From a virus, in IMG/VR virus record IMGVR_UViG_3300040801_003853, positions 1 to 31,418 of that record: a stretch of 31,418 nucleotides of DNA. One strand, written 5' to 3'. The notes under the pieces are model-generated. The model was not told where the DNA came from and did no database searches. It saw only the letters and a list, made by a program, of their open reading frames with translations. A program made the position numbers and the translations under genes. Of the stretch, positions 12,802 to 31,216 are shown one piece after another. The stretch's first letter is position 1, and each line of letters opens with the position of its first letter.

Positions 12802-14922
12802 ATGGCTTATAATAAAAACTGTGATCCACTAAAGTATCAATATGACGTACCTATTTTACCTCCAATTCCAGGTTTAGATGGTTTTACTGCTGATTTAAAC
12901 TTTCCAACATTTGGTATTGAATTACCTGATGGAATACCTGAAGATTTATTAGATTGGATAAGAAGGCTTAGATTTAATTTACCAGGTGGAGGTATATTAG
13001 AAGGAATTCTTAGAAGTCTTCAAGATACGATTGCTGAGATTATAGCAAGGCTATTACAAAGTTTAAATCTTTTCCTTAGCATGTATAATTTTATTATGTC
13101 GATTATAGAAATTATAATTTGTATAATAAATGTTTTAACAGCTTTTAAAAGTATAAGAAAAATGATAAAAAGAATAAAATGTTTAATAAGAAAATGTTTT
13201 CCTCTTTTTGTTAGAGTTGTTATGCCATTTTTTGCTTTGTTAGCTTTGTTATTAAATTTATTAGCTTTGTTATTAGCATTAATAGAATACATAATAGATT
13301 TAATAAGAAGATTAATAGAACAGTTATTAAGAAATATAAAAAGATTAAAAAATGTATTAAGAGATGGTAATTCAAATTCGGCTCTTGCGATAATAGCAAA
13401 ACTTTCCGATTTAATGTGTTTATTTGAACATGTTTTTGTTTTATTATCTATAATAGAATTAATATTTGCTTTAATAGAGGGTAAATTAAATAAAAATTTT
13501 AAAGTATGTAATGGTGGAAGTTCAAGCGGAAGTATTTTAACGGATGATGATTTATGTGCGTCCTTTTTACAAGAACCAAATTTACAAATAAGCGAAAGCC
13601 CTGAAATTTGGAATTTAAGAATGAAAGGTGGAAGCAATGCTTTTGTTTGGTATTGCAATGAAGTCTACGGTCAACCATTTTCATTATTCCCGGCTACTTC
13701 TGTAGCTAAAATAAGAAATGAGTCTGTATATTTACAAGATGATTCATTAGCCGATGCTTTAAAATTTAAAAATGTTATTAAATACAAACCTATTAATGAA
13801 AATAGATATTTTCCGATGTTTCCTTTTGATAAAACAATAACTGAAGATATGGATGAAAGTTTAATTCCATATTTTGTAGATATAACTATAAATGCAGACC
13901 CAAATGATGGATATGGGGCAAGAGATATAACTGTTGAAAATACTGTAGTTACGCTTCCAACTTTTAGAGCTTTATTAGATGTAATTGCAAATATTCCAAA
14001 ATATACAACAAATAACAATGGTTATTTATCAATATCTGGTGGGCAAACAATAGATGATTTTAATGGATATAATGGTAAAACTATAAAAGAATTATTAAAG
14101 GATGTGACTGGATATGATCCAAATATAAGTGGAAATGGTAGTCAATCTCAACTTGCTTTAAAATCATATCAAGTAAAAGCAAATTATGAAGCTTTGGTAG
14201 AGTATGGATTAGTAACCATTGGATGCTTACCTACTATGAAGCAAGAATATGCTCATTTTGATGAGGTTTATGAAAAACCATTAAGACCAAATATTTCGGT
14301 AGATTTACCAGATATGACAAGCGCTATAGCTAATATGAGGCAATGTGTTAATACATTAAATTCAAGTTTTAATGAAACAGCAATAAATACTTTTGATAAT
14401 TGTATGAATGAAATATTAGTTGATTTATCAAATCAAGCAAACACTGCTTATTGTCAATTACTTGATCAATCTATAGATATATACAATACGCAAATAAATT
14501 TAACTCCAGAGATGCAATTTGTTACATTACCTATAGAAGTAAAAGTAAAACCAATAAGTGATGATAATAGGACTTTTGATGAATTAGTTGGAGGTTTTGG
14601 GTCTTCAATAGATATTAATTCTTGTATTTCTACAAAATTTACAGCTAAAGTTACTCTTGGAGATATATCTACTTTTACATATGATGGATATGGTAATTTT
14701 ATAGCTGAAATTACAAGCGATACTCCTGGAGATGGTTATGTTGATGTTTATTATAATGGAGAGCAAATACCAACAGTAATTGCTCCAAATAATATTGATC
14801 AACAACCATCTGTAACATATGAATCGAAAGAATATACATTTGTTGGATTCTTTGATGATGGTTATGCTGAAGGAGTGTTACCATTACCAAGACGTGATTT
14901 TGGTGATATTTCAAGAGATTAG
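12802..14922 (+). CDS. Baseplate-associated protein with three long hydrophobic helices, function unknown
   Basis: I do not recognise a family for this 706-residue protein. The first 60 residues are Pro/Gly-rich (PILPPIPGLDGF). Then come three very hydrophobic stretches: about 91-116 (MSIIEIIICIINVLTAF), 132-165 (FFALLALLLNLLALLLALIE) and 204-228 (LFEHVFVLLSIIELIFALIE). They are separated by strongly basic helices (KSIRKMIKRIKCLIRKC; RRLIEQLLRNIKRLKNVLR). These would be called transmembrane by any predictor, which is unusual for a baseplate component made in the cytoplasm. Residues 235-600 are soluble, with scattered cysteines. About 605-680 looks like an Ig-like beta domain (FTAKVTLGDISTFTYDGYGN). 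The start abuts the spike stop (TAAATG) with GGAGG upstream. Possible roles include a membrane-inserting part released on infection or a buried hydrophobic structural bundle; neither is shown. Confidence 0.55.
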   Translation: MAYNKNCDPLKYQYDVPILPPIPGLDGFTADLNFPTFGIELPDGIPEDLLDWIRRLRFNLPGGGILEGILRSLQDTIAEIIARLLQSLNLFLSMYNFIMSIIEIIICIINVLTAFKSIRKMIKRIKCLIRKCFPLFVRVVMPFFALLALLLNLLALLLALIEYIIDLIRRLIEQLLRNIKRLKNVLRDGNSNSALAIIAKLSDLMCLFEHVFVLLSIIELIFALIEGKLNKNFKVCNGGSSSGSILTDDDLCASFLQEPNLQISESPEIWNLRMKGGSNAFVWYCNEVYGQPFSLFPATSVAKIRNESVYLQDDSLADALKFKNVIKYKPINENRYFPMFPFDKTITEDMDESLIPYFVDITINADPNDGYGARDITVENTVVTLPTFRALLDVIANIPKYTTNNNGYLSISGGQTIDDFNGYNGKTIKELLKDVTGYDPNISGNGSQSQLALKSYQVKANYEALVEYGLVTIGCLPTMKQEYAHFDEVYEKPLRPNISVDLPDMTSAIANMRQCVNTLNSSFNETAINTFDNCMNEILVDLSNQANTAYCQLLDQSIDIYNTQINLTPEMQFVTLPIEVKVKPISDDNRTFDELVGGFGSSIDINSCISTKFTAKVTLGDISTFTYDGYGNFIAEITSDTPGDGYVDVYYNGEQIPTVIAPNNIDQQPSVTYESKEYTFVGFFDDGYAEGVLPLPRRDFGDISRD

Positions 14923-16436: not shown

Positions 16437-16862
16437 ATGTCCTTTGATTTAAAATTAGATGGTGGAGATCTTAGAATAAAAGATGGTGATTTAGAAACTA
16501 TACATGATACAAATAAATTAACGCAAGATTTATTAAAAATAATAGTAACCCCATTAAATGCAAATCCAGTTAATCCTTGGTATGGATCAAATGTAGGTTT
16601 AGCATTGATAGGAAATACTTTTGATTTAGATTTTGGAATAGAAGCGGCAAGGGCTCAAATATCAACCGCAATTGATAATTTATTAAGAATGCAACTTTCT
16701 CAATCTAATACGCAAGTTTTATCTCCAGCGGAATCAATATTATCTATAAAAGATATATATGTAAATACAAATAAAAATGATAGAAGGGTTGTAGAAGTAT
16801 TAGCTTCTGTAGTTTCAGCGGCTTTAACAACAGCAAATGCAAGATTTAGTATTAATTTGTAA
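16437..16862 (+). CDS. Baseplate wedge protein, gp25/W/XkdS-like
   Basis: This 141-residue protein matches the length and layout of the gp25 family: a short beta start (DLKLDGGDLRIKDGDLETIH), a helix (NKLTQDLLKIIVTP), the Gly turn NPWYGSNVG, a long helix (AARAQISTAIDNLLRMQLSQ), then closing strands (ILSIKDIYVNTN). In T4, P2 and T6SS baseplates this protein clamps the J/gp6 homologue in the wedge core. The EPR motif usual before the closing strands is not present; the segment reads SPAESILSIKDI. AGGAG lies 6-10 bases before ATG 16437. The next gene is the gp6/J-like partner, as in other contractile systems, which strengthens the call. Confidence 0.8.
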   Translation: MSFDLKLDGGDLRIKDGDLETIHDTNKLTQDLLKIIVTPLNANPVNPWYGSNVGLALIGNTFDLDFGIEAARAQISTAIDNLLRMQLSQSNTQVLSPAESILSIKDIYVNTNKNDRRVVEVLASVVSAALTTANARFSINL

Positions 16863-16898: not shown

Positions 16899-19800
16899 AT
16901 GGCAATTATATTATCAACATCCCAAATAACTAATAGATTTCTTGATTTTTACAAGATAGCTCAACCTAATCTTGATACAAAACCGGGAACCGTAGCAAGA
17001 GATTTGTTAATAGATTCTATATCTATTAGAATAGCTGAAACTTATAATGAATTATTACGAGTTTCTAATTCACAATCAATAACTAACAGTGTTGGTGAAG
17101 ATCTTGATAATTTAGGCGGTAATTTTAATGTTCCAAGAGCTTCGGCTGGAGCTGCTTCTGGTACAGCATTATTAACATTTAATTCAATAGGTGCTGATAT
17201 AACAGTAGCAAGTGGTGCTTTAGTTTATGCAAGAAATGGAGTTTCTTTTAGAATAATATCTGGTGTTGTTATATCAGCAGCAAATGAAGCACAATATAAA
17301 GCATTAGCTACAACATACAGAGATGATTTAGATTTTGTTGGAATTACAGACAATTACGCTATTGAAGTTGTTGTAGAAGCTGTTAGTGCAGGTATTCAAG
17401 GAAATATATCAAAATATGGTTTAGTTTCTGTTTCCATACCTGGTATATCAAATGTAACAAATGTTTCTCCATTTATTGGAGGTTCTCCTGTACAAAATGA
17501 TGCTTCTTATTCAAGGCAAATATTGTCGGTGTTTTCTGGATCTAATACAGGTACAGAATTAGGATATGAAAATTTAGTTTTAGAAAATTCTTCAGTGTTA
17601 GATGCTATAGTTGTTGTACCTGGAGATCCATTGATGACAAGAGATGGATCTATTCAAGAAACAAATGAAAATGGAGAATTGGTATTAACAAATGGAGAGC
17701 CAACAATAATATCTGAAGGAACTGGTGGTAAAGTAGATATTTTTGTTTATGGAAGAAGATTAGGAGAAAATCTTGATAGTTATATTTATAATGATAAATC
17801 TGGAAAGTCTGACGCAACACAATCTATAAATGATTATACTATTGGGCAGATATCAGGTGACAGCAATAAAACTGTTACAAGAAGAAGGTTAGAGAATATA
17901 AAAAACGGTGCTCTTCCAAATCAACCTATAATTAACATATTAGAAGTTATAGGTTCTCGTAGTGGAACTTTTTCTCCACAAATAATAGATGAATATGGTA
18001 ATTCTACTGGAAATTATACTTTATTAAAAGACACTGGAGTTTTTGCTGAAAGTGCTTGGGGACAAGATAAACTTTCTTGGGTAAGCAATTCTGTAAATAG
18101 AAGCGAAAATTTATCTAAAAATGTATTCAACGGTCAAGATACATTATTATATTCAGATGTTACAAATATCACTCAAATAAATAGAGTAATAAATGTAATT
18201 AATGAAAATAGCACAGTAAAATCATTAAATTCTCAACTGCAATTGTCGCATACTCCAGTTAGGTCTGTAAATAGAGTATTAAATGTAACTACAGGCGAAA
18301 GATATGTTGTTTCAGATAGAAATCCTAATGGAAGTTCGGGAGATTTAAATACAGATGGTATAATAACAATTTCTGGTAAAAATCTTCCTTCATCAAGCGA
18401 TACTTTACAAGTTGATTATGAATGGATATTTTATCATGATTCTTTTGTTGACTTTGATTCAATTAAATATTCAGATAACCCAAGAATAGCAATAGATACT
18501 GTGGATTGGGGCTATTCTAACGCAATAAGGAGAGAAGAAAAAACAGTACAAGATGGTTATACAGTAACCGTAACTCATAACATTAGTTCTGTTATATCTG
18601 TTAATAAAGTAGTAACGGAAACATCTACAGTTTCCTTATCTACATCTGGAGATAATTTAGTTGTACAAAATTTAAATGAATTAGTGCAAAATGTAGTTTC
18701 TATAAAGAAATTAAATGGAGCTGAGGTTTATAATACAAACGAAGATAATGGTAGTTTTGATAGTAACAGAATAATATTGCCAACAGATACATCTGCTCAA
18801 GTAGGTGATTCTGTTGTAATAACATACAATGCTTTTGATTTGTTTAATATAAACGGGAATAAAGGTACATTTTCAAATAATATTATTACGTTGGTACAAG
18901 ATGCTAAAAATTATATAAGTATTTATTCTACTGTTGAAGTGAATTACATAGCAAATGTAACAACATTATTACCAACAACAAATATATCAGAATTACCCGC
19001 AACTAAAAATGTAAATGGTTTTTCTCTTAATGGATCAACATCAATTATAGGAACTCAACCAATAACTAATATTTATTCAGGTTCTTTAGTTACAAAAAAT
19101 CTAAGGAAATCACCTACAAGATTAAATATAAATGTTGCGGGAACTTCAGAACCTGGACTAATAACTATTTCTGGTGAAACAGTAAAATTATTACAAAATG
19201 TAGTAATATCAAGTATAAGTTCTGGATTAACCCAAGATTTGTCTTTAGCTATAAAACAAGGATTAGGGTTAAGTTTAACTTCAGCTTTATCTTCAAAAAT
19301 TAAATTAGCAAGACTTGTTTCTTTTGAAAAAGTTGAAACTTCTAATGATGTTGTAACAAATGTTTTACAAGAATATGATATAATTGGATATTCTTTAAAT
19401 GATAATTCTTATGATATAGATACTACAGTAAAGGATTCTTCACTATCATCAACGAAAGTTGTATTACCTACTACAGTAACAAATGTAGCAAATCAACCTT
19501 TAGTTGGAGATAAAATAAGAGTAACAATGTATGTTGTTACAAATGATGATGAAGAAAATATTAGTTTCTCTACAAATGGATCAATATATTCAGATAAAAA
19601 ATTTGGTTATATTGATTCTATTTTAGTATCAAGCGGTTTTAAAACAGGAAGTACAATTCAAGGTTCGTTAACTATATCTCCAATGAACCAACCTAATTCT
19701 GGAAATAGATATTCCGCTATATATACATACACAGCTCCTAAAAATGGAGAAAGAATAAGTATTAGATATAATACAAATGAATTAATTGAAGATTTAACAT

Positions 19801-20147
19801 TAGGTATAGAAAGTAGTAGATCCGTAACGGCTGACGTTTTAATTAAATCAGCTTCTTCAATATTAATTGATATTACTGCTACAATATCTGTACTTTCTGA
19901 ATTTTCAAATACTAAAATTATTGTTGGTCAAAATGTTGGAGATAAAATATCTAATTATATTAATAATTTGGATTTAGGATCAACTCTTCATCCATCAGAT
20001 ATAACAAATGTTGCATATCAGGTTAACGGATTAGATTCTATTGTTATTGAAAGATTTAATGTTTCTACAAAAACAGGAAATACATCAGCTATAACCGCTC
20101 TAAAAAATCAATATATGCAAGCTAACAACATAAATATTAAAGTGTAA
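16899..20147 (+). CDS. Baseplate wedge protein, gp6/J/XkdT-like
   Basis: This 1082-residue protein is clearly of the Baseplate_J type. The N-terminus has the typical helical entry (ITNRFLDFYKIAQPNLDTKP, GTVARDLLIDSISIRIAETY), then GEDLDNLGGNFNVPR, then the beta part with ITVASGALVYARNGVSFRI and GIQGNISKYGLVSVSIPGIS, followed by SPFIGGSPVQNDASYSRQI. J proteins are usually 300-650 residues. Here an insertion of about 500 residues (roughly 380-900) holds several beta-sandwich modules, e.g. 597-648 with EVYNTNEDNGSFDSNRIILP and TSAQVGDSVVITYN. The C-terminus returns to the family pattern (VGDKISNYINNLDLGSTLHP, SDITNVAYQVNGLDSIVIER). Paired gp6-like subunits form the ring that joins wedges. The ribosome site is poor (AAGAAG); a 36-bp gap precedes the start, with no terminator or promoter recognised. 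Confidence 0.85.
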   Translation: MAIILSTSQITNRFLDFYKIAQPNLDTKPGTVARDLLIDSISIRIAETYNELLRVSNSQSITNSVGEDLDNLGGNFNVPRASAGAASGTALLTFNSIGADITVASGALVYARNGVSFRIISGVVISAANEAQYKALATTYRDDLDFVGITDNYAIEVVVEAVSAGIQGNISKYGLVSVSIPGISNVTNVSPFIGGSPVQNDASYSRQILSVFSGSNTGTELGYENLVLENSSVLDAIVVVPGDPLMTRDGSIQETNENGELVLTNGEPTIISEGTGGKVDIFVYGRRLGENLDSYIYNDKSGKSDATQSINDYTIGQISGDSNKTVTRRRLENIKNGALPNQPIINILEVIGSRSGTFSPQIIDEYGNSTGNYTLLKDTGVFAESAWGQDKLSWVSNSVNRSENLSKNVFNGQDTLLYSDVTNITQINRVINVINENSTVKSLNSQLQLSHTPVRSVNRVLNVTTGERYVVSDRNPNGSSGDLNTDGIITISGKNLPSSSDTLQVDYEWIFYHDSFVDFDSIKYSDNPRIAIDTVDWGYSNAIRREEKTVQDGYTVTVTHNISSVISVNKVVTETSTVSLSTSGDNLVVQNLNELVQNVVSIKKLNGAEVYNTNEDNGSFDSNRIILPTDTSAQVGDSVVITYNAFDLFNINGNKGTFSNNIITLVQDAKNYISIYSTVEVNYIANVTTLLPTTNISELPATKNVNGFSLNGSTSIIGTQPITNIYSGSLVTKNLRKSPTRLNINVAGTSEPGLITISGETVKLLQNVVISSISSGLTQDLSLAIKQGLGLSLTSALSSKIKLARLVSFEKVETSNDVVTNVLQEYDIIGYSLNDNSYDIDTTVKDSSLSSTKVVLPTTVTNVANQPLVGDKIRVTMYVVTNDDEENISFSTNGSIYSDKKFGYIDSILVSSGFKTGSTIQGSLTISPMNQPNSGNRYSAIYTYTAPKNGERISIRYNTNELIEDLTLGIESSRSVTADVLIKSASSILIDITATISVLSEFSNTKIIVGQNVGDKISNYINNLDLGSTLHPSDITNVAYQVNGLDSIVIERFNVSTKTGNTSAITALKNQYMQANNINIKV

Positions 20148-23100
20148 TGGCAAATTTAAGATTAATTAGATATTCGGTAATTGATTCTAAAACTATAAAA
20201 CTATATTTTAATGATAATTTAGATAGTAGAATTGGTATATCTAATTTTAGTTTAATATCAAAATCATTAAATGTTCCTAATGGAACGATTTCATCAATTT
20301 CAATAAAAAATGATGAAATAGAATTAAAAGTTTTACCATTAACTCCATTTGCAATTTATAAATTAAAATTATTTAGCACATCCACAATTATATTTAAAAG
20401 TATAAATGGTAATGTTTTACTTGAAGATGGTAATACTAATGAACCATTAATAAGTGGACCAAGAAACCCATCAAATGATATACTTGAAAAAACTTTAAAA
20501 TTTTTTAAAAAAAATGTATATGATGTAGATAATTCAACTGTAGTTAGAAGCGTATTAGAAGCAAATACTCAAGCTTTATATAAATTAAGAAATACAACAT
20601 TACAATTAAAAACGGATAATTATATTTCTGTTATAAAAAATGATGAATTTAGAACAAGAGGTAAAGGACCTTATGATAGATTAGGAAATGAAGGTGTATA
20701 TGAAATAATAAGGGTTAGTAAATATCCTTCAAACTTTATTGGACAACGTAGCATAGAATTAAATGAATTTCCTAAAGAGCCGGTTACGCTTCAAAGAGAA
20801 GTAGTAAATAGAGAGGTTTTAACTGGAAACAATTCTAATATAAAAGGAACTTTTACTGGAACTATATTAAATTTAAATAATAATAACGTAACAAAAGTAA
20901 AAAGTATAATTATTATTTATCAAACTGGCTCATCTATTTCTTATAATTTAGAAAGTTATGGTTTTCAAATAAAAGATTCAAGATATGATGATAATGCGTC
21001 TACTTTTGTTCAACTTGAATCTAATCAAGTAAAATTTAGTCAAAAAGCTATAGATAATGGTTTTATTACTCCAGTAATTGGAGACAGGGTTATAATAGCT
21101 TATGAATATAAAAATACAGGAATAGATGTAAATGCTACAACTGTAGAAGTTAATGAAATAAAAACTCAAACAAGAGAAGTTTGTCCTCCAATAGCAACTA
21201 TATTTTCTTTAGAAAATGATAAAATAGTAAAAAATAATGGTACTGCTGGTTCTGTTGGTGATGTTGTCTTTTTAGATCCAAAATCTACCCCACCATTTTC
21301 AAAAACACATCCGGCATTTAAAAATGAGATGGTTTATAATTCTCAAAAATTACCATCTGCTCCTGGATATTATGCTGTTGATTATGAAAATGGTAAGGTT
21401 TATGTTTTCGGTGAAGATACAACTCAAGAAAATGTTGGAACTGGACCATTTCCTCCAGTTTGTAATTATAAATATAAAAAATCATATATAGAAGATTTAG
21501 ATTATACATACGATGAAACTTTAAGAGAAATTGTTGCAAATCCTCAAAGAGAATTAATATATAAAAATGTTGTAATAGATTTTAATTATCAAGAAGTATA
21601 TGTTGATGGTGTTGATTACAAATCTCAAATACATAAAGAGATTTTAGATGAAAGAATAAATAATAATTTATATGGAACAAGCACAATTAAACCTCAAAAT
21701 GGTCCAATAACAAATGTTTTTAGAATATTTAATGAAACTACAGGCGAAATTTATAGAATAAATAGATTTGATGATTATAAGGTAGAATTTAATTATAATG
21801 TTCCTCCAGCAAAAGTAAAAGTAAGAGAAGAAAAAGCTTCTTTTGAATCAATTTATGACGAAATTTTAATAAAAAATGATTCTTATTCAAATGTTCATGG
21901 TTTAAATATTTGGAAAATAAATTTATTAAATAATGATATTATTTGTAGTACGGAAGATGCCGTTGCATCAAGTATAAATACAAGTCTTACTTTCTCGGAT
22001 GATAATATTTTTATAAATGAAAGATATTATGATGTAGAACAAACTGTAACAACAAATATTAATAAATTATTATCAAATGGAGAATATGTTGTTGATTATG
22101 TAAATGGAATAATATATTTAGCTATATCTTCAACAGCAAGTCCAGACATAGGATCAGCCTCTTATAAATCTAAATATATAAAAACAGATTATGATCATAT
22201 ATTATCTGTAGATAAAGTTTATAGTACTTTAGATAGATCTGGGGAACAATCTTATGTAGAAACTTATAATTATAATACATTTTCAGATACAAAAATAGAT
22301 TTGTTAGAGTATTCATATTCAAATAGAAGATATGTATCTACAGATCCAGATATTCCTATTTTAGTAAATTCAAATACTATAACTTTACCTGTTAATGCTA
22401 AATCTGTTAGAGGTGCTTATGAATCAACAGATTTGAACACATCTTTAAATCCAATAAATTTTGCTATTGGGTCTACTACAAGCTTTACTACTTCAACACT
22501 AACCCCTGTTGAATTTATAACATCAAATACTGTAAATGCTGGTTTTACAGTTATAGTGCCAGAAGTTCAATTAAATTCTAATTTTATAATTGACTCGGTT
22601 TTATATGTAAAAGATTCAAATGATAATGAATTATATAATACAGCATTATCAGATGGAAGTTTTGCTGGATCAACGATAACATTACCATCCGATACTACAG
22701 CAGTAATTGGTGAAACTGTTAATATATCTATAAATATAAAATTAGCAGATAATTCAGCAGTTATAGTAGATTTAGATTATGGTGGTTTATATATAGATTA
22801 TACAGCATTATATGATGAAATAATATTAAGTTATGAATATGGAGATAATTGTTTAGACTTTAGAGAAAGTCAAACGGTATTTGAAGGAAATGAATATTAT
22901 GTATCATACAAATATGGTGCATTAAGAGACGCTTTATTAAATAATTTTGGCTCGGCTATAGAAATCCCAGAATTTAAAAACTTTAATGTTGATTTAGATA
23001 GAGAGAGATATAGAGATGCTATAAGAGCATGTTTTTATACATTTCCAAGTGGACCAACAATTGGAGCGATTAAAGATATTGCAGCTATTATATCTCATAT

Positions 23101-26100
23101 AGAACCTGAATTAATAGAATCTTTATTTCAAGAATGGGTTCTTGGAAATAGTAGACTTTATGAAAATGATATTGTTTCATCTGGATGTAGTTTACTTTCA
23201 GCAATTTGGGATTATGGTGTTTATTTTTCTGGAGAAGATGATTATATAAAAACATCAATGTCATCTCATTTTAAATTTAATGGCGGTACTACAGAATTTT
23301 GGGTAATACCTAATTGGAATGGTTTAGATAATGATGCAGCTTTAACTTTTCAAATAAAAAAAGATGGGTATATCTTAAGTTCAAATAAAATATATATTGG
23401 GTCTACAGCATATAACCCAACTTACGATTTGTCTGATAAATTTACTTTATCAAGATTTACAACGCCTACTTCTATAGGCTTACCTAAAAATATTAAAACT
23501 CAAAAAAATGGAGTTTTTATATATTATGATTCTGGAAAAGAAAAATGGTTAATTATAACAAAAAATGAAAATAAAGGAACTGCATATTCGGGAACGATTG
23601 AAACATCCGGTGAATTTTATGATGTTAGAAATGTTCTTTTTGAACAATCCGATATAAAAAGAACTCAAAATAATAAGATAACATTTAATATGTATTTAGA
23701 TGGATATGATGGCTATAATGATGGATATGATGGATATGTTGATGGTATTTCTTGGATGTCAGATGAAATTAGATATTTATTTGATTATGGAGAAGCTTTA
23801 GACTCTAATAGAATTTCTATATATAAAGATGCTTCCGGTTATTTAAATATGAGAGTTTTTGCTGATAAAGATAAATATAATCGAGTAAGATTTTATGAAA
23901 TAAGTAGTGATATATCAGATTGGAAAGCTGGAGATCAACATCATATAGCATTTTGCAATAAATTAGGAAGTAAAGATAAAAGAGATGAGCTTCACTTATT
24001 TGTAGATGGTTTTGAAGTTCCAAATATTATTAGATATGGCGGAAAGTTAGAAGCAACTTCATCAAATAAGTTTAGAGAAGTAGTTCCAGAAATAGTTTTA
24101 GGAACTGTTCCAAAAAATACTTTAGCTGCTAATGATCTTATCACAACAGTTGGTAGTTCTATAGTAACAAGTGAAAGTGTAGATTTTGGATTGGCAGGTA
24201 TAGTTGCTGGAGATACAATCTATATAGAAGAGCAAGGTTTTGCAACATCTTATACAATTATTTCAGTTATAGATTTTCATACTTTACAACTAAGTTCTTC
24301 TATGCCAATATCAATTACTAATGGAACTTATTCTGTAAATAAATGGACAGCTCCAGTAAGTATAGAACTTATGTATGAATCAAATCTTTTAGTTTCAAGA
24401 TATGATGGAACTACCGAAACAGAACTTCCAGGGCTTAGAGCTACAGTTCCAGCATATGCTGTAAGTGTAGACTCTTATGGTCAACCATCTATAGTTATAA
24501 GATCGGAAGCTAAAGCTGGAGATAAAATTTATATAAGAACTTTAGGGTTAAACCATAGAAGAATTAGAGAAAGAATGTATTTATGGGGAGGATCTGATAG
24601 TATAATAAGAACTAATTTACCTCCGCCAATAAATCTTGATTATACAAAAATATATCCCGTTAATAAAGTTAGATATTTGATGAATTCTTCTCGACCTTCT
24701 TATGGGGCTACCGGAGGAACTACAACAATTGTAGGTAATGATATATCTATTGTTGGAATAAATGTAGATACTCAACCTTCCAATGAAATTGGAGGAAGAA
24801 CATTATCCGTTAATTTATCTGGAGATAATATAGATTTTACAACATCTCCCATAATTAAAATTAATGGAACTACATGGAGCGGATCTACTTCAGAAAATAT
24901 AACTTTTACAAATGTAGGTACATTAGATACAAGCGAACAATTTAAAACAATTACTTCTATAGATGCTTATGCTACAGCTATAAATATCTCAAGACCAATA
25001 GCAAGTTTTGAAATTAAAGAATCTGAACAAATAACTGTACTTGAAAATGATGGATATGTTCCTGTTATAAGATATAGTAATAGATTAATATCCAACTCAT
25101 CTTTTTCTGGTTCAGGAACTACAATAACAAATAATGTTATTACTTTTTATTCAAGTATGGAAGGTAAAACATTTGTTATAGATTCTCCAGCTTCAGTTGC
25201 TGGTACATATATTATATCAAAAGTTGATGATGCTCATAATTTAACACTAACAAGTTCTTTACCAGCGTCATTCTCTAATGGAACTGCAAGTATATACAAT
25301 GTATCTATATCAAGAAGCGGTTTTCAAAATGGTAAATTTATTTTTGAAAAAGCTGGAAATACTCCAGATCCTTACATATTAAAAAAAGGATATTATGATT
25401 TTGATTATGCTACTTATCTTGAAATACCATTTGATTTTGTATCAGATGATGTTTATATAGGTAATAGTATAAATAAAACAAATCCAGCTAAAACTATTAT
25501 TGATGAATTTAGATCAATTATTCTTCCTATGACCGATATAAGAATAGGAGAACCTACACCTTCAAATAATTATAGTATAACTTTAGATTATTTAAGAAAT
25601 AAACCATTTGAACCTGATGAATATACATCTTTGTTGTTACATATGGATACTTTACCTCCAACAAATTCTGCTATTGCGTATAGCAGATATTCAGATCAGT
25701 TTCAACAAGCTAATAATAGTGTAAATAGTAATTTTGATACTTCATTGTATATAGAAAATACCCCATATACAATTTTTAATGATTTTATATTATTTGGTAA
25801 TGCAGGAACAATAGAATTTTGGTTTAGTCCAAATTATGATAGCAAAAATGATAATGAGGATAGATATCTGTTTGATGCTAATTCATCTATCATTGAAGAA
25901 ATAACAAGTTTAACTAAAACTACAGTTAAATTACCTGTAAGAGCAAAAAATGTTTATACAATACAATTAGCAAATGAAACTTCTGTAACATCTACAAATT
26001 ATGCTATTGGGGGATCTTTATCAAATGATAAATTAACTTATACTCTTGGTCAAGCATTACCCGGACAACATACTAATGTAAAAGTAGTATATACTCCATA

Positions 26101-26797
26101 TGGATTAGAAGGAGATAGACTTTCCATATATAAAGATTCATTTTCTAATTGCGTTTTTTCTATAACCGCAAATGATGTCGTATATAGTTTAAAAACCCCA
26201 GTTTTTTGGAGTAGAAATACTTGGCATAGAATAATGGCAACTTGGGATTTTAATAAAACAAACGCTGGAGAAATGCATTTATTTATAGATGGAGAAGAAA
26301 AAATTATACTTCAAGCCGGAACTTTCATTGCCGGTTCTGGATATATAGCCGGAAATGTAGTCCCTAATACTAATCAAAATTTAAATGTTAGAATAAAAGA
26401 TCAGTTCCAAGAACTAAATTTTGGAGGAAGCTTCCTAAAAGGAAATGTTATGAATGGAAGAATAGATAATATAAAAATTAGTAATATTAAAAAAGCTCCC
26501 GTGTATATTTCAGGACAACCGTTTGATAATGATTATAGTTCTAATACTTCTTCTGCATTGCCTACAGTAAAAGATTTATACACAACTTATATTACAAATT
26601 TTGATAACGAAAATGAAAAAATAGAAGATTTTGCAATTTTAAAAAATAAAGTTTCGGGAATTTTTGACTTTACTCTAAAAGTCTTTGATTCTTTTGATAT
26701 AATAAATGATAGCAGTAGAGTTAAACAAATTTTTGAAAAACTTATAAATGTTTTAAAACCCGCTAACTCAAGAGCTTTCATAAAGTATATTAGATAG
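20147..26797 (+). CDS. Giant baseplate/adsorption protein with two LamG-like domains
   Basis: This 2216-residue product follows gp6 as T4 gp7 or P2 I do. The N-terminal 300 residues look like a wedge attachment part (ILEKTLKFFKKNVYDVDNST; GKGPYDRLGNEGVYEIIRVS). Around 400 and 640 a strand motif recurs (YYAVDYENGKVYVFG; YVVDYVNGIIYLA). Two LamG/concanavalin-like jelly-roll domains are visible. The first spans about 1023-1300 (GGTTEFWVIPNW; DRISIYKDASGYLNMRVF; ELHLFVDGFEV). The second spans about 1848-2115 (AGTIEFWFSPNYDS; DRLSIYKDSFSNCVFSI; TWHRIMATWDF; EMHLFIDGEEK). Such domains usually bind glycans or surface proteins, so a receptor-contact role is inferred. A DGY-rich insert lies at 1184-1200. 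The C-terminus (FEKLINVLKPANSRAFIKYI) resembles the end of tail proteins that precede fibres. The ATG overlaps the gp6 stop (TAATG) with no Shine-Dalgarno sequence, so translation is probably coupled. Confidence 0.65.
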   Translation: MANLRLIRYSVIDSKTIKLYFNDNLDSRIGISNFSLISKSLNVPNGTISSISIKNDEIELKVLPLTPFAIYKLKLFSTSTIIFKSINGNVLLEDGNTNEPLISGPRNPSNDILEKTLKFFKKNVYDVDNSTVVRSVLEANTQALYKLRNTTLQLKTDNYISVIKNDEFRTRGKGPYDRLGNEGVYEIIRVSKYPSNFIGQRSIELNEFPKEPVTLQREVVNREVLTGNNSNIKGTFTGTILNLNNNNVTKVKSIIIIYQTGSSISYNLESYGFQIKDSRYDDNASTFVQLESNQVKFSQKAIDNGFITPVIGDRVIIAYEYKNTGIDVNATTVEVNEIKTQTREVCPPIATIFSLENDKIVKNNGTAGSVGDVVFLDPKSTPPFSKTHPAFKNEMVYNSQKLPSAPGYYAVDYENGKVYVFGEDTTQENVGTGPFPPVCNYKYKKSYIEDLDYTYDETLREIVANPQRELIYKNVVIDFNYQEVYVDGVDYKSQIHKEILDERINNNLYGTSTIKPQNGPITNVFRIFNETTGEIYRINRFDDYKVEFNYNVPPAKVKVREEKASFESIYDEILIKNDSYSNVHGLNIWKINLLNNDIICSTEDAVASSINTSLTFSDDNIFINERYYDVEQTVTTNINKLLSNGEYVVDYVNGIIYLAISSTASPDIGSASYKSKYIKTDYDHILSVDKVYSTLDRSGEQSYVETYNYNTFSDTKIDLLEYSYSNRRYVSTDPDIPILVNSNTITLPVNAKSVRGAYESTDLNTSLNPINFAIGSTTSFTTSTLTPVEFITSNTVNAGFTVIVPEVQLNSNFIIDSVLYVKDSNDNELYNTALSDGSFAGSTITLPSDTTAVIGETVNISINIKLADNSAVIVDLDYGGLYIDYTALYDEIILSYEYGDNCLDFRESQTVFEGNEYYVSYKYGALRDALLNNFGSAIEIPEFKNFNVDLDRERYRDAIRACFYTFPSGPTIGAIKDIAAIISHIEPELIESLFQEWVLGNSRLYENDIVSSGCSLLSAIWDYGVYFSGEDDYIKTSMSSHFKFNGGTTEFWVIPNWNGLDNDAALTFQIKKDGYILSSNKIYIGSTAYNPTYDLSDKFTLSRFTTPTSIGLPKNIKTQKNGVFIYYDSGKEKWLIITKNENKGTAYSGTIETSGEFYDVRNVLFEQSDIKRTQNNKITFNMYLDGYDGYNDGYDGYVDGISWMSDEIRYLFDYGEALDSNRISIYKDASGYLNMRVFADKDKYNRVRFYEISSDISDWKAGDQHHIAFCNKLGSKDKRDELHLFVDGFEVPNIIRYGGKLEATSSNKFREVVPEIVLGTVPKNTLAANDLITTVGSSIVTSESVDFGLAGIVAGDTIYIEEQGFATSYTIISVIDFHTLQLSSSMPISITNGTYSVNKWTAPVSIELMYESNLLVSRYDGTTETELPGLRATVPAYAVSVDSYGQPSIVIRSEAKAGDKIYIRTLGLNHRRIRERMYLWGGSDSIIRTNLPPPINLDYTKIYPVNKVRYLMNSSRPSYGATGGTTTIVGNDISIVGINVDTQPSNEIGGRTLSVNLSGDNIDFTTSPIIKINGTTWSGSTSENITFTNVGTLDTSEQFKTITSIDAYATAINISRPIASFEIKESEQITVLENDGYVPVIRYSNRLISNSSFSGSGTTITNNVITFYSSMEGKTFVIDSPASVAGTYIISKVDDAHNLTLTSSLPASFSNGTASIYNVSISRSGFQNGKFIFEKAGNTPDPYILKKGYYDFDYATYLEIPFDFVSDDVYIGNSINKTNPAKTIIDEFRSIILPMTDIRIGEPTPSNNYSITLDYLRNKPFEPDEYTSLLLHMDTLPPTNSAIAYSRYSDQFQQANNSVNSNFDTSLYIENTPYTIFNDFILFGNAGTIEFWFSPNYDSKNDNEDRYLFDANSSIIEEITSLTKTTVKLPVRAKNVYTIQLANETSVTSTNYAIGGSLSNDKLTYTLGQALPGQHTNVKVVYTPYGLEGDRLSIYKDSFSNCVFSITANDVVYSLKTPVFWSRNTWHRIMATWDFNKTNAGEMHLFIDGEEKIILQAGTFIAGSGYIAGNVVPNTNQNLNVRIKDQFQELNFGGSFLKGNVMNGRIDNIKISNIKKAPVYISGQPFDNDYSSNTSSALPTVKDLYTTYITNFDNENEKIEDFAILKNKVSGIFDFTLKVFDSFDIINDSSRVKQIFEKLINVLKPANSRAFIKYIR
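23698..23748 (+). repeat. Short in-frame GATGGATAT tandem repeats (DGY repeats)
   Basis: Imperfect repeats of GATGGATAT/GATGGCTAT encode DGYDGYNDGYDGYVDG inside the first LamG-like domain of the 20147 gene. Related DGY-type turns recur in the next gene (LDGYEDGYGYG). Asp-Gly-Tyr turns could bind calcium or be a surface loop that varies in length by slippage; this is inference. Confidence 0.6.
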
Positions 26798-26805
26798 GAA
26801 AAATT

Positions 26806-29763
26806 ATGACAAAAAGATTATCAGTTACAACACCTTATATGAATTGGAGAAATGGGCAAATGGTAGCCCAAGAAGACCTGAATTTTGAACAAACTCATAA
26901 TTTAAATTCTAATTCAGCTATCGTTAATAATTTTTTCGGTTCTGGCTTAATTGCATATAGCCCAACAAGACAAGTTATATTTGATTCGTCAAATTTAAGC
27001 TCCGCTCAACAAGCCCTGGTTACAAGTAACAATTTCGATGGAAGAGGAATCTCTCCTCATGGTCAACCAACAGATACGTCTCTAGGACATCAATTAGAAA
27101 TTAATTTAACGGGAGCGGAGGTTTCCTTAAGAAACTCTATTAAAATTTGTATAATAGGCTTAGACTTCGAAGGAAGCCTACAATATGAATTCTTCTACTT
27201 TCATAAAAACGAGATTCAAGTTAGTAAAAAACATTTTACAAATGTAATAACATTATTGTTTAATGATTTTAAGGGTAATCAAAATTGCAGTAAAGACCTT
27301 GGAGGTAAGATTATTATAAAGGAAGCTTTACCTATGCAATTATCAAGAGATGCAATTACAGCTTCTCAAAATCTTGAGCCTAATTTATTTTTTAGAGATT
27401 TTAAAGTTGTAGATCAAAGTTTAGGACCAAATCCAAGCACTACATTATCTTTAACATTACAAGCGGCTATAGGTAGTTCTTATAGTGTTGATTCTTTAAA
27501 TATTAATACAACATGGTTAAATAAAAAATCTCTTGCAAATGATATTTCAACAAGATTTGGTCAAAAATTTAAAGCTAAAGTAACAAATATTCAAAAAGTT
27601 AGAGTATTATTAGGAGTAGAAAGAAATCTTTCCGTGCCATCAAGTCAATATTTTAATTGGTCCGGAAACATAATATTAAGTATACATGCTTTACAAACAT
27701 CCGTATCATGCCCTACCGATGTTACTCCAGATGATGCTATAGATTTTGATCCAGAACCTACAGCCTTAGCTCAAATAGTTATAACTCAAAACACTTTAGC
27801 TCAAAAAGGTATAACATTAACCGATGTAGCCCAACCTATAGATTTTGTATTTACAAATACAAAAGTTGGAGGATATACAAACACAGGTATCTTAAAGAAT
27901 AATTATTACATAGTTACTATTCAAAGAGCTGGAGATGCATCTACCGGAACTATATTCACATTAACAGGTAGAGATTTTGCTGAAAATTCTGTATATTCTC
28001 AATTTAATGGAACGTCATGGACCGATGATACAACTCAAGACATGTGGTTTGAAGTATACTCTGACGCTTTAAAAGCTGCCGATGGTATGGGGTATGATGC
28101 TGGAAATAGTTTATCTATAGATAAAACAGCAGTAAATTCAAATACCGGAGTAACTTATGATTATGTTGAAGATGGAATTGGTTTTGCTAATAATGGTCAA
28201 GATGTATTAAATTATACCGTAGCTCAATCTATAAATGATCTTATAACTATCACTCAAGACGAAAGAACCGGCGGAAATGTTTATTCCCAAGTAACAAATA
28301 AAGCCGAATTAAGCTCATTAACAAGTTCCGAAAAAAGTTCTCTTGAATCTACAGAAGATCCAATAATTTTAGGTTGTTCTTACGATATAAATAATAAAAG
28401 CTCCGCAACATTAACCGGAACTCAAAAATATATTGGATTAACATCATCAAATGAATTCTGTATTGTTGATCCAGACGCAGCTTTGAAATTATATAATTTG
28501 GTTGGGTCTGTCTTTACTCCAAACACAGCAAACGCTAATTCAAACCAATATTATGTGTATAAAACTAATTTATGTATTGATGGTTACGGTGACCTAAATG
28601 GCGATAGTTATGTTTCATATGATGACGTTCAAAGAGCAAATGCTTTATTAGGAGAAGATATAAATAATGCCACAACTCAAGCAAAAATAGCCGCTGGAAC
28701 TATATCGGCTCTTGAAATAATAAGAGCGGACGTAGATGGAGATGGAGTTGTAGATGCTTCCGATATAGCCGCAATTAATGGATTATATACAAAAGATCAA
28801 AGCGTAATATTACCTTATGGTGCTACTTTTGAAAGATTATGTTTATATGTAGAAAATCTAAATGGAAGAAATGATGGTTATCATTCTTGTGGAGAAGGTT
28901 ATGCGAGAATATATAATCCTCAGCCCACCTCAACTTACTACACTACACTTGATGCGTATCAAAAATTGTGGTATGGGTATCCCGTTCCAGTTAACATTCC
29001 TGGAAATGAATCAGCATTAACTACCGTTCCATTTGTAGATGTTAATTTTAGATTAGATATCTCTCCATCATGGCGAGAAGAATATGTTAAAGTACATAGT
29101 ACAGGAAGATTACTTCCTTGTACATTTACTAACTTAACTGGACCTACAATAAATGATTGTTCAGATCCTGAAAAGTTTTATTGTGGATTATTAGAAAAGA
29201 GTAATACATGTAAAGGTGGAGAAAATATATTATTTACTCCTAATTTAATGATTGGAGATGGTGGGCAGATATTAGCTCCAGACGGAAGTAATCATAAGAT
29301 AGATTTTGAATCTAAAAAAATTATATTAACTTTACCTGATGAGGTAATGATAAATAAAAGTATAGATGTTTTTAGTGTATTTGCAGCTGAAGAACCTGGT
29401 TCTAATGGGTTTACGAGTTATGGATATCCAGCCGCTAAATTTGCGGATTGTTCTTATGTACAATCTACCGCTTTAAGTAATGATCAAGTTAGATTTAATG
29501 TTTATATAGCCAGCTTAAATCAACAATTGGATGGGTATGAGGATGGGTATGGCTATGGCATAATCGCTGATGCGCTTTTAGGTGCATATATGAACCAAAC
29601 AACTGGAGTATTAACAATAACTTCCACAAATGTTAATGAAGATTTAACCATCCCATCTCAAAATTGTAAAATTATTATTGATGTTTTACTTAAAAAAGGA
29701 GGTTGGGTTAACAAACAAACCGATGTATCTCCAAATGAAGTTATAGAATTATTTGGATTGTAA
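26806..29763 (+). CDS. Peripheral tail/baseplate protein with a dockerin-like calcium-binding pair
   Basis: This 985-residue protein is the last gene of the rightward run. The N-terminus (PYMNWRNGQMVAQEDLNFEQ) resembles the start of many phage tail proteins. A long beta-rich middle follows, with an acidic link near 300. Residues about 596-607 (DLNGDSYVSYDD) and 642-653 (DVDGDGVVDASD) are two canonical dockerin loops with Asp/Asn/Ser at positions 1, 3, 5, 9 and 12. Each is followed by a short helix (VQRANALLG; IAAINGLYT), the duplicated F-hand layout of dockerins. About ten cysteines lie in the C-terminal 400 residues, including NDCSDPEKFYCGLLEKSNTC. The C-terminal 150 residues look like a cohesin- or carbohydrate-binding-module-like beta sandwich (KIILTLPDEVMI; LTITSTNVNEDLTI), but this is weak. 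AGGA lies 10-13 bases before ATG 26806. Position suggests a receptor-side tail part. Confidence 0.6.
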   Translation: MTKRLSVTTPYMNWRNGQMVAQEDLNFEQTHNLNSNSAIVNNFFGSGLIAYSPTRQVIFDSSNLSSAQQALVTSNNFDGRGISPHGQPTDTSLGHQLEINLTGAEVSLRNSIKICIIGLDFEGSLQYEFFYFHKNEIQVSKKHFTNVITLLFNDFKGNQNCSKDLGGKIIIKEALPMQLSRDAITASQNLEPNLFFRDFKVVDQSLGPNPSTTLSLTLQAAIGSSYSVDSLNINTTWLNKKSLANDISTRFGQKFKAKVTNIQKVRVLLGVERNLSVPSSQYFNWSGNIILSIHALQTSVSCPTDVTPDDAIDFDPEPTALAQIVITQNTLAQKGITLTDVAQPIDFVFTNTKVGGYTNTGILKNNYYIVTIQRAGDASTGTIFTLTGRDFAENSVYSQFNGTSWTDDTTQDMWFEVYSDALKAADGMGYDAGNSLSIDKTAVNSNTGVTYDYVEDGIGFANNGQDVLNYTVAQSINDLITITQDERTGGNVYSQVTNKAELSSLTSSEKSSLESTEDPIILGCSYDINNKSSATLTGTQKYIGLTSSNEFCIVDPDAALKLYNLVGSVFTPNTANANSNQYYVYKTNLCIDGYGDLNGDSYVSYDDVQRANALLGEDINNATTQAKIAAGTISALEIIRADVDGDGVVDASDIAAINGLYTKDQSVILPYGATFERLCLYVENLNGRNDGYHSCGEGYARIYNPQPTSTYYTTLDAYQKLWYGYPVPVNIPGNESALTTVPFVDVNFRLDISPSWREEYVKVHSTGRLLPCTFTNLTGPTINDCSDPEKFYCGLLEKSNTCKGGENILFTPNLMIGDGGQILAPDGSNHKIDFESKKIILTLPDEVMINKSIDVFSVFAAEEPGSNGFTSYGYPAAKFADCSYVQSTALSNDQVRFNVYIASLNQQLDGYEDGYGYGIIADALLGAYMNQTTGVLTITSTNVNEDLTIPSQNCKIIIDVLLKKGGWVNKQTDVSPNEVIELFGL
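28591..28764 (+). other. Dockerin type I-like duplicated calcium-binding domain (sub-feature)
   Basis: The two 12-residue loops begin at 28591 and 28729 and are 46 residues apart. Usual dockerin spacing is nearer 30-35, and the extra length is a helical linker (NNATTQAKIAAGTISALEII). The first loop has Y and D, the second A and S, at positions 10-11, the residues that set cohesin choice in cellulosomal dockerins. Confidence 0.75.
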
Positions 29764-31143
29764 TATTTCTCCCCAATTTTTTAATAATAATTCCATTTCT
29801 TTTATAGTTAAATTATTTTTTATAACATTAGCTCTATATGATATAAACCACACGTTATTTTTTACGTAACCTAATTTTGGAATAAATCTATCCAAGGTTG
29901 GAGATGTGGATGTTAATTTATTAATACCTTTTTTTAGTTTTACATTTAGAACTGGGCACATTCCGTTTGCTGGATAAATTATTTTTAAATATTCTTTATC
30001 TATATTGAATGGTAAATTATATTTTTCGGCTCTCATTTTAGCACTATAAAGAACAGATCCTAAACTTACCTCTAATTTTTTATTTGGAGTTTTATCTATA
30101 TTAATTGAGAATTTTTTTAAATTTTCAACTATATTTTTATATTCATAAAATGTTGCGTTATTTTTAGATACATTTGCTTTACATGATACGATCCATACAT
30201 TTCCCATTATATATCCTTTATTTGGATCTATTCTATCTAATGTAAAAGAATTATAAAAAACTGTTTCTTTACCAACCTGCATTGGTATTTCTAATAAAGG
30301 ACAAATGTTATTTTCTGGAAATAGGCTTTTTACATAATCAATAGTTAGGTTGAAATCTAAATTTTTTTTATTTGCCCTTCTACGGGCATTTCTAAATAAA
30401 TAATATTCAGGATGGTTTTCTTGAAAATTTCTATATTTTTTTTTACGTATTTGTGTATAGCATTTATTACATATATTTGCAGAATATAAAAATTGATTTC
30501 CTGGTTTTGTACTTTTACAAATTTTACATATATTTTCTATCATTTTTATTCTATTTTGTTTTCGTACTTTTATATTTTTTTTCATACAAGATATACAAAT
30601 TGAACAGTCTTTATAAAATTTTTTAATATCTTTTAATCTATTACAATTTGTACATTTAAAATTTTTTAATTTAGAACGTCTAATTCTTCTTTCTTCTTTT
30701 TCTTTATTTTTACAGGATTTACAATGAGAAGTGTTTTTGAAAAAACTTTTTTTAGATTTTATTTTTTTACACTTTGGACAAATACGCTCTGAACTATTTA
30801 AATCAGAACATTTGGAGAATTTACCTTTATAAAAATTATTTACTGGTGTTTTTGTCTTACATTGTATTATAAGTTCATCGTTTTTAATTTTGGTTTTGTT
30901 TAATTTAGATTTTCTATATTTTTTATTACATTCTATACAATTTCTTTGTCCTTTACTAAAATCATATATTGGTTTTATTTTTTTACAATGTTTACATTTC
31001 ATAGTATTTAAATTTTTCATTTTTTCAATTTGTTTTTGATATCTTTTTTTCTCAGCTAATCTACTACATTCTTTACATTCAGATCTACCTTTGCGATATT
31101 CTTCTATAGATTTTTTCATTTTACATCTTGAACATATTTTCAT
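29749..31143 (-). CDS. HNH-type homing-endonuclease-like protein with six zinc-ribbon repeats and two tandem nuclease modules
   Basis: This is a leftward gene of 464 residues from ATG 31143-31141; a TTG two codons earlier is the only alternative close by, and neither has a clear ribosome site. The first half holds C-x2-C...C-x2-C ribbons at about 4-26, 50-72, 122-144, 164-186 and 206-228, plus a decayed one at 95-112 with single cysteines. The second half has two copies of one nuclease module. Copy 1 (252-345) has NARRRANKKNLDF, CPLLEIP, TLDRIDPNKGYIMGNVWIVS and ANVSKNN; copy 2 (361-457) has SAKMRAEKYNLPF, CPVLNVK, TLDRFIPKLGYVKNNVWFIS and ANVIKNN. This LDRID...GYxxxNV...N-x2-KN form is known from phage HNH endonucleases in which the usual DH is DR. 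Copy 2 has F-I-P where copy 1 has I-D-P, so it may be inactive. Its 3' end overlaps the tail gene by 15 bp. Confidence 0.8.
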   Translation of the reverse strand: MKICSRCKMKKSIEEYRKGRSECKECSRLAEKKRYQKQIEKMKNLNTMKCKHCKKIKPIYDFSKGQRNCIECNKKYRKSKLNKTKIKNDELIIQCKTKTPVNNFYKGKFSKCSDLNSSERICPKCKKIKSKKSFFKNTSHCKSCKNKEKEERRIRRSKLKNFKCTNCNRLKDIKKFYKDCSICISCMKKNIKVRKQNRIKMIENICKICKSTKPGNQFLYSANICNKCYTQIRKKKYRNFQENHPEYYLFRNARRRANKKNLDFNLTIDYVKSLFPENNICPLLEIPMQVGKETVFYNSFTLDRIDPNKGYIMGNVWIVSCKANVSKNNATFYEYKNIVENLKKFSINIDKTPNKKLEVSLGSVLYSAKMRAEKYNLPFNIDKEYLKIIYPANGMCPVLNVKLKKGINKLTSTSPTLDRFIPKLGYVKNNVWFISYRANVIKNNLTIKEMELLLKNWGEILQSK

Positions 31144-31216
31144 AATCAATTTATATTTTAAAAAACATTTTTTCTTGATTTAAACAAATCTATTTACCTT
31201 AAGTAAAGTTTTTTGA

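Follow-up and report, generated by a model that had tools for sequence, protein, structure and literature searches.

The window analysed here is the whole of a 31.4-kb viral fragment from IMG/VR (IMGVR_UViG_3300040801_003853; 31,418 nucleotides). It carries the following genes, the last of which encodes the protein that is the subject of this analysis:

16437–16862, + strand: gp25-like sheath initiator/baseplate protein (phrog_2669, E = 1.4e-7; phrog_43)
16899–20147, + strand: gpJ-like baseplate wedge protein (PF04865, E = 1.7e-16; phrog_6, E = 1.3e-34)
20147–26797, + strand: 2216-aa baseplate protein, with LamG/ConA-like domains in its relatives (PF13385)
26806–29763, + strand: 985-aa peripheral baseplate/tail protein with a dockerin module (open reading frame, orthologues, neighbours and fold match)

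The LamG assignment comes from 8 of the 11 relatives of the 2216-aa protein, which matched PF13385 with a best E value of 1.5e-13. The 985-aa gene lies tail to tail with a gene on the minus strand (29749–31149), the two overlapping by 15 bases at the end of the dockerin gene. Its 466-aa product is an HNH endonuclease (phrog_3322, E = 1e-54; phrog_1035, endonuclease VII) with ten CxxC knuckles, and is probably a free-standing homing endonuclease.

The features within the 985-aa product are, in order:

27340–28074, + strand: lectin-like jelly-roll domain, residues 179–423 (fold match)
28549–28584, + strand: beta strand that runs straight into the dockerin, residues 582–593 (model secondary structure)
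28585–28821, + strand: dockerin module, residues 594–672 (Pfam Dockerin_1, profile and fold match)
28591–28626, + strand: calcium loop 1, DLNGDSYVSYDD, residues 596–607 (conserved ligands)
28618–28644, + strand: helix after loop 1, residues 605–613 (AlphaFold2 model)
28660–28728, + strand: phage-specific inter-loop segment with an extra helix (conservation and model helices); the equivalent segment of clade B holds an insertion of ∼110 residues (monophyletic insertion clade)
28729–28764, + strand: calcium loop 2, DVDGDGVVDASD, residues 642–653 (conserved ligands)
28756–28788, + strand: helix after loop 2, residues 651–661 (AlphaFold2 model)
28825–28857, + strand: beta strand leading out of the dockerin, residues 674–684 (model secondary structure)
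29296–29703, + strand: C-terminal beta domain, residues 831–966, weakly H-type-lectin-like (model m3f0754507b2a and fold matches)

A sequence-only reading of this DNA had placed a dockerin-like domain in a tail protein. The setting agrees with this: the gene is downstream of the gp25-like, gpJ-like and LamG-bearing genes, and residues 179–423 match the baseplate chain 9euj_G of Staphylococcus phage phi812 (Z 16.8, rmsd 3.2 over 156 residues). Besides the phi812 baseplate chain (Z 15–17), the fold matches of these residues include further phage tail-tip chains as well as carbohydrate-binding modules. The jelly-roll is common to the phi812 chains 9euj_G and 9euf_0, with the match confined to that domain. 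The protein thus combines a gene position in the baseplate module with a structural match to a baseplate chain, as expected of a peripheral baseplate protein of a contractile tail.

We noted that both loops, which together span 28591–28764 exactly as first read, are in frame in the 26806–29763 open reading frame. The residues at positions 1, 3, 5, 9 and 12 (D, N, D, S and D in loop 1; D at all five positions in loop 2) fit the dockerin pattern that had been proposed. Strict loops occur at a rate of 0.001 per shuffled copy of the 985-aa protein, compared with the two observed, and even a loose pair of loops 25–60 residues apart appears in only 0.06% of shuffles. The Pfam model Dockerin_1 (PF00404), whose curated cut-off is 22.9 bits, matches residues 594–657 of the ATG-started protein with an E value of 3e-4 and 21.4 bits, slightly below the cut-off; a six-frame search of the window gives 23.8 bits, above it. 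The cut-off is exceeded in 13 of 21 related records, with a maximum of 46.6 bits, and all 18 aligned orthologues are matched (best E = 1.8e-10).

The sub-threshold score of the window's own copy, together with weak matches from EF-hand models, could be taken to mean that the module resembles a dockerin by chance or through a generic EF-hand likeness, with no dockerin ancestry. We give this explanation hardly any credence, given orthologue scores of up to 46.6 bits. A profile built from 13 orthologues retrieves solved dockerins with an E value of 1.5e-12, whereas calmodulins follow only at 0.0037 and worse, and in the same search the C-terminal FPVG of the module aligns with the dockerins of 8x39 and 8x3a, a continuation that they have in common. 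Together with the fold match described below (2.1 Å over 66 residues), these results refute a chance or EF-hand resemblance at the level of sequence and predicted fold.

The full-length AlphaFold2 model, built from 18 sequences, has a mean pLDDT of 68, with the dockerin region at 81–90. Helices are predicted at residues 605–613, 622–630, 635–641 and 651–661, so that each loop is followed by a helix (605–613 and 651–661, pLDDT about 81–90), as the sequence-only reading had anticipated. The paired loop–helix fold is present in the model and matches solved dockerins with Z scores of 6.8–7.9 and rmsd values of 2.1–2.5. In VIA-align the closest is the double-dockerin of Clostridium thermocellum, 8x39_A (Z 7.9, 2.1 Å over 66 residues, 27% identity), followed by the ScaB dockerin 4uyq_B (Z 7.3) and 4fl4_G (Z 6.8). 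In the model the module is embedded directly between two beta strands and not on a terminal linker. The dockerin-like domain is therefore borne out by sequence profile, predicted fold and, as set out below, conservation. By sequence and model, residues 594–672 have a true dockerin fold with two calcium loop–helix motifs, whose ligands are those expected to bind calcium.

To find the lineage, an alignment of the gpJ-like protein was used as query, giving 20 IMG/VR loci that were chosen independently of the dockerin. The module was found in 19 of them (weakly in L014, E = 0.05); in the remaining locus, L007, the contig stops short of the gene. Later scans with the family gave 76 loci. One of the two patterns used in these scans was the dockerin loop, which biases the wider set towards dockerin carriers, so the universality of the module can be estimated from the 20 gpJ-found loci only. 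From all scans, 71 distinct orthologues on metagenomic contigs were aligned, and the module is kept in all 71, in a set partly found by dockerin-derived patterns. Many of the orthologue contigs are longer than 200 kb, reaching 473 kb, and thus belong to huge phages. A scan of the collection with the window protein alone gave no relatives, alignments being required to find the family, and no match for the 985-aa protein was found among 50,697 phage records. A scan of bacterial genomes returned one hit only (L139), a 3.1-kb contig (JAAUSR010000192.1) in a Thioploca MAG that encodes the C-terminal half of an orthologue, including the second loop. This may be a phage fragment in that bin, and at only 3 kb the contig is too little for naming a host.

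The dockerin is the best-conserved part of the protein. Among 25 members of clade A, the group that includes the window, its mean pairwise identity is 62%, compared with 43–58% elsewhere. The calcium ligands at positions 1, 3, 5 and 12 have entropies of 0 to 0.7 in these 25 members, with position 9 the exception to near-zero entropy. In the full set of 71 orthologues, practically every member has an intact loop 1, with D1 and D12 invariant (71/71) and D or N throughout at positions 3 and 5; loop 2 has D12 in 71/71 and D at position 1 in 68/71.

Cellulosomal dockerins read their cohesins through positions 10, 11, 17, 18 and 22 (PMC6780208). In the phage family, positions 10, 11 and 18 of both repeats fall in the 75th–97th percentile of variability within the protein and position 17 in the 72nd–74th; only position 22 is moderately conserved. 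The conserved recognition residues of a cellulosomal type I dockerin are therefore not found here.

Highly variable positions 10, 11 and 18 have an arms-race-like appearance, and could mean adaptation to different host cohesins. The module would then help the phage to adsorb by binding a host-surface cohesin, or a domain resembling one, with the recognition positions varying with the hosts, as one form of the docking first proposed. Binding to cohesins is what dockerins are mainly known for, and the lectin-like domains of the 985-aa protein suit a surface-facing role. Cohesins are also found outside cellulosomes, in a variety of bacteria and archaea (PMC9012536). We nevertheless consider host docking unlikely. 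Within a core baseplate protein, no other part evolves as slowly as the dockerin, which sits between strands rather than at a linker end and in one clade is split by an inserted domain. Its lineage-wide presence over many metagenomes fits poorly with reliance on cohesin-bearing hosts, and no such host was identified. Identities to the orthologue in the related locus L002 are 46% for the 985-aa protein, 50% for the gpJ-like protein and 44% for the 2216-aa protein; the 985-aa protein evolves at the pace of core baseplate genes, unlike a fast-changing receptor-binding tip.

The spacing between the loops had been described as unusually wide, and this is real: the window has 46 residues from loop to loop, with an extra helix (622–630) in between. 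In the solved dockerin DocCel48 the spacing is 33, from Asp8 to Asp41 (PMC8063739), and the window therefore departs from the ∼33-residue spacing of cohesin-binding type I dockerins of cellulosomes. Grouping the 71 orthologues by spacing gives three forms. In 26 of them, which make up clade A, the spacing is 46; 12 have 48–53 (clade C); and 33 have 136–181 (clade B). In a tree computed with the dockerin columns left out, all 33 long-spacing tips are monophyletic with a support of 0.99, which indicates that a domain of ∼110 residues was inserted between the loops once. The clade B insert (L026–L030, L068–L106) is located between helix 1 and loop 2, leaves both loops in place and is beta-rich by look.

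The 46-residue form has the inter-loop consensus STQQKIVDG...LE.LRAD, which is modelled as the extra helix, and T624, Q625, G631 and R640 show no variation across clade A. Some members of clade C (L013, L056–L060, L063 and L067) combine a weakened loop 2 (e.g. DVTDNG or DVTNNG) with an intact loop 1, which suggests one-site variants.

The near-invariance of the calcium ligands would also be compatible with a calcium sensor, in which the baseplate would rest until the loops take up calcium and would then pass into an adsorbing state. There is a precedent in lactococcal phage p2, whose baseplate undergoes a calcium-dependent switch from a heads-up to a heads-down conformation (PMC6115969). The p2 site, which is known experimentally, is however a different site in another protein (Dit), and the weaker second loops of the DVTDNG type in some clade C members mean that two-site switching is not universal. 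No result obtained here favours a conformational change, and we judge a sensor role to be improbable.

A further property is a strong excess of the tripeptide DGY in virion proteins. In the window it occurs 15 times against 1.8 expected, in the products of 12802–14922, 20147–26797 and 26806–29763, and in the 71 orthologues of the 985-aa protein it occurs 396 times against 15.4 expected; DGF is not enriched and NGY only mildly. Regions of over-representation are also present in other loci (L006, L008–L012, L016–L023 and L144–L147). The excess is found in frame only and is nearly absent from the phage G region. Codon use for DGY is that of the background, except for a mild excess of GGG, and the signal therefore seems to reside in the protein sequence. 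In a 458-kb genome, sampled as nine 20-kb stretches and the baseplate locus, DGY is concentrated at 240–320 kb and 360–380 kb, and one 1457-aa open reading frame has 10 copies.

Docking as first proposed needs a cohesin on the host or in the virion, and the search for one in the phages detected none: there is no match to PF00963 (Cohesin) in the window and 21 related records, a set of 22 phage records of which many are fragments, so that a partner encoded elsewhere could escape. For the 2216-aa neighbour, the product of the gene starting at 20147, neither a profile search against the PDB nor Pfam on 11 relatives gave a cohesin; LamG domains and noise were all that appeared.

The C-terminal beta domain of the 985-aa protein, folded alone with 70 sequences, gave a model with a pLDDT of 78. 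Its best fold matches are the Helix agglutinins, which are H-type lectins (Z 5.2–5.5, with an rmsd of 2.6 over 82 residues at Z 5.5), and the R1-pyocin fibre scores Z 5.0. The cohesin 1ohz_A scores Z 3.5 with an rmsd of 3.9, level with many unrelated beta sandwiches. Pfam on the 70 C-terminal domains returned no match, either to cohesin or to H-type lectins. With Z scores this low, other fold families are possible too, and the H-type lectin reading of the modelled domain is a lead rather than a finding. A likeness of the domain to cohesin, suggested by eye, found no backing: the PDB profile search and Pfam gave nothing, and H-type lectins come out ahead in the fold search.

In the other form of docking, the baseplate would be snapped together by the dockerin plugging into a virion domain that resembles a cohesin, located either in the 985-aa protein itself or in a neighbour. 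Candidate partners would be the C-terminal beta domain and the several beta domains of the neighbour, and 1ohz_A does appear low in the C-terminal fold list at Z 3.5. Against this, H-type lectins reach Z 5.5 for the same domain and Cohesin profile matches are absent from all 22 records. A fixed partner should moreover conserve positions 10, 11 and 18, yet these vary. Such a clamp within the virion is in our estimation quite improbable. Neither form of docking is thus supported: the C-terminal domain is closer to H-type lectins than to a cohesin, and the cohesin-reading positions are mostly among the most variable.

The reading towards which we lean, with a modest degree of confidence, is that the dockerin has a structural part in a peripheral baseplate protein, as a module that is locked by calcium and packs by way of surfaces specific to the phage. 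A structural module is favoured over a cohesin plug by the fixed calcium core, the conserved inter-loop segment, the variable classical face, the embedded position and the tolerated insert. We infer the calcium binding, the structural role and the choice of surface alike. Binding of two calcium ions would make the module rigid; the rigid module would stabilize the 985-aa protein and help to keep it in the baseplate. The surfaces used for packing would be the ends of the module and the conserved stretch between its loops, perhaps facing a neighbouring subunit, and not the classical face that plugs into a cohesin. To our knowledge, all well-studied dockerins bind a partner, and a purely structural dockerin would be unusual.

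More tentatively, the huge-phage lineage may have taken over a calcium-dependent dockerin and made it a working joint in its baseplate. The joint would engage an unrecognised partner that varies rapidly, either a divergent cohesin or another fold, which could belong to the virion or to the host; in one clade the dockerin would be split by an insert with both calcium sites kept. This would represent a new mode of recognition outside cellulosomes, a possibility that we hold as doubtful but worth stating.

The closest solved relatives of the module are the cellulosomal type I dockerins (PF00404), namely the C. thermocellum Clo1313_0689 double-dockerin (8x39/8x3a), ScaB (4uyp/4uyq) and 4fl4. The phage module shares with them the two loop–helix motifs, ligands at 1, 3, 5, 9 and 12, the profile and fold match and, as in 8x39/8x3a, a terminal PVG. 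In contrast to them, it has a loop spacing of 46 (136–181 with the insert) rather than about 33, is internal between beta strands, lacks the conserved recognition code and has no cohesin partner found.

Among viral proteins, A0A6J5RS54 from an uncultured Caudovirales phage (BFVD/UniProt) is a member of the family on the grounds of both fold and sequence, with 30% identity across the protein and an E value of 1.8e-79. Its length of 1332 aa is in line with the sizes of the insertion-bearing clade B. It is already named ‘Dockerin domain-containing protein’ in the database, and the domain call itself is therefore not new. Among cultured phages, Bacillus phage G (Donellivirus gee) gives the best match to the gpJ-like protein, at 29% over half of the query; the 497-kb genome of this phage has no dockerin anywhere, nor does it contain a counterpart matching the 985-aa protein. 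The baseplate of lactococcal phage p2 is alike in having a calcium site. Our literature search found no paper on dockerins in huge-phage baseplates or on A0A6J5RS54; papers pairing dockerins with phages dealt with bacterial MAGs, with a structural likeness that is unrelated, or with a phage gene whose identity is unclear. The novel aspects are conservation throughout the lineage, the location in a baseplate, forms in which the module is extended or split, and the absence of a conserved recognition code.

Dockerins have been studied as plugs of the cellulosome. The role of dockerins outside cellulosomes is largely open (PMC9012536). Here, an apparently vertically kept dockerin is found in a virion protein of viruses that are among the largest known, with its calcium sites fixed and its cohesin-reading residues free to vary. 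Whether a dockerin can act as a calcium-locked structural module thereby becomes open to testing, and calcium together with a single 79-residue domain offers a handle on assembly or adsorption in an uncultured group of huge phages.
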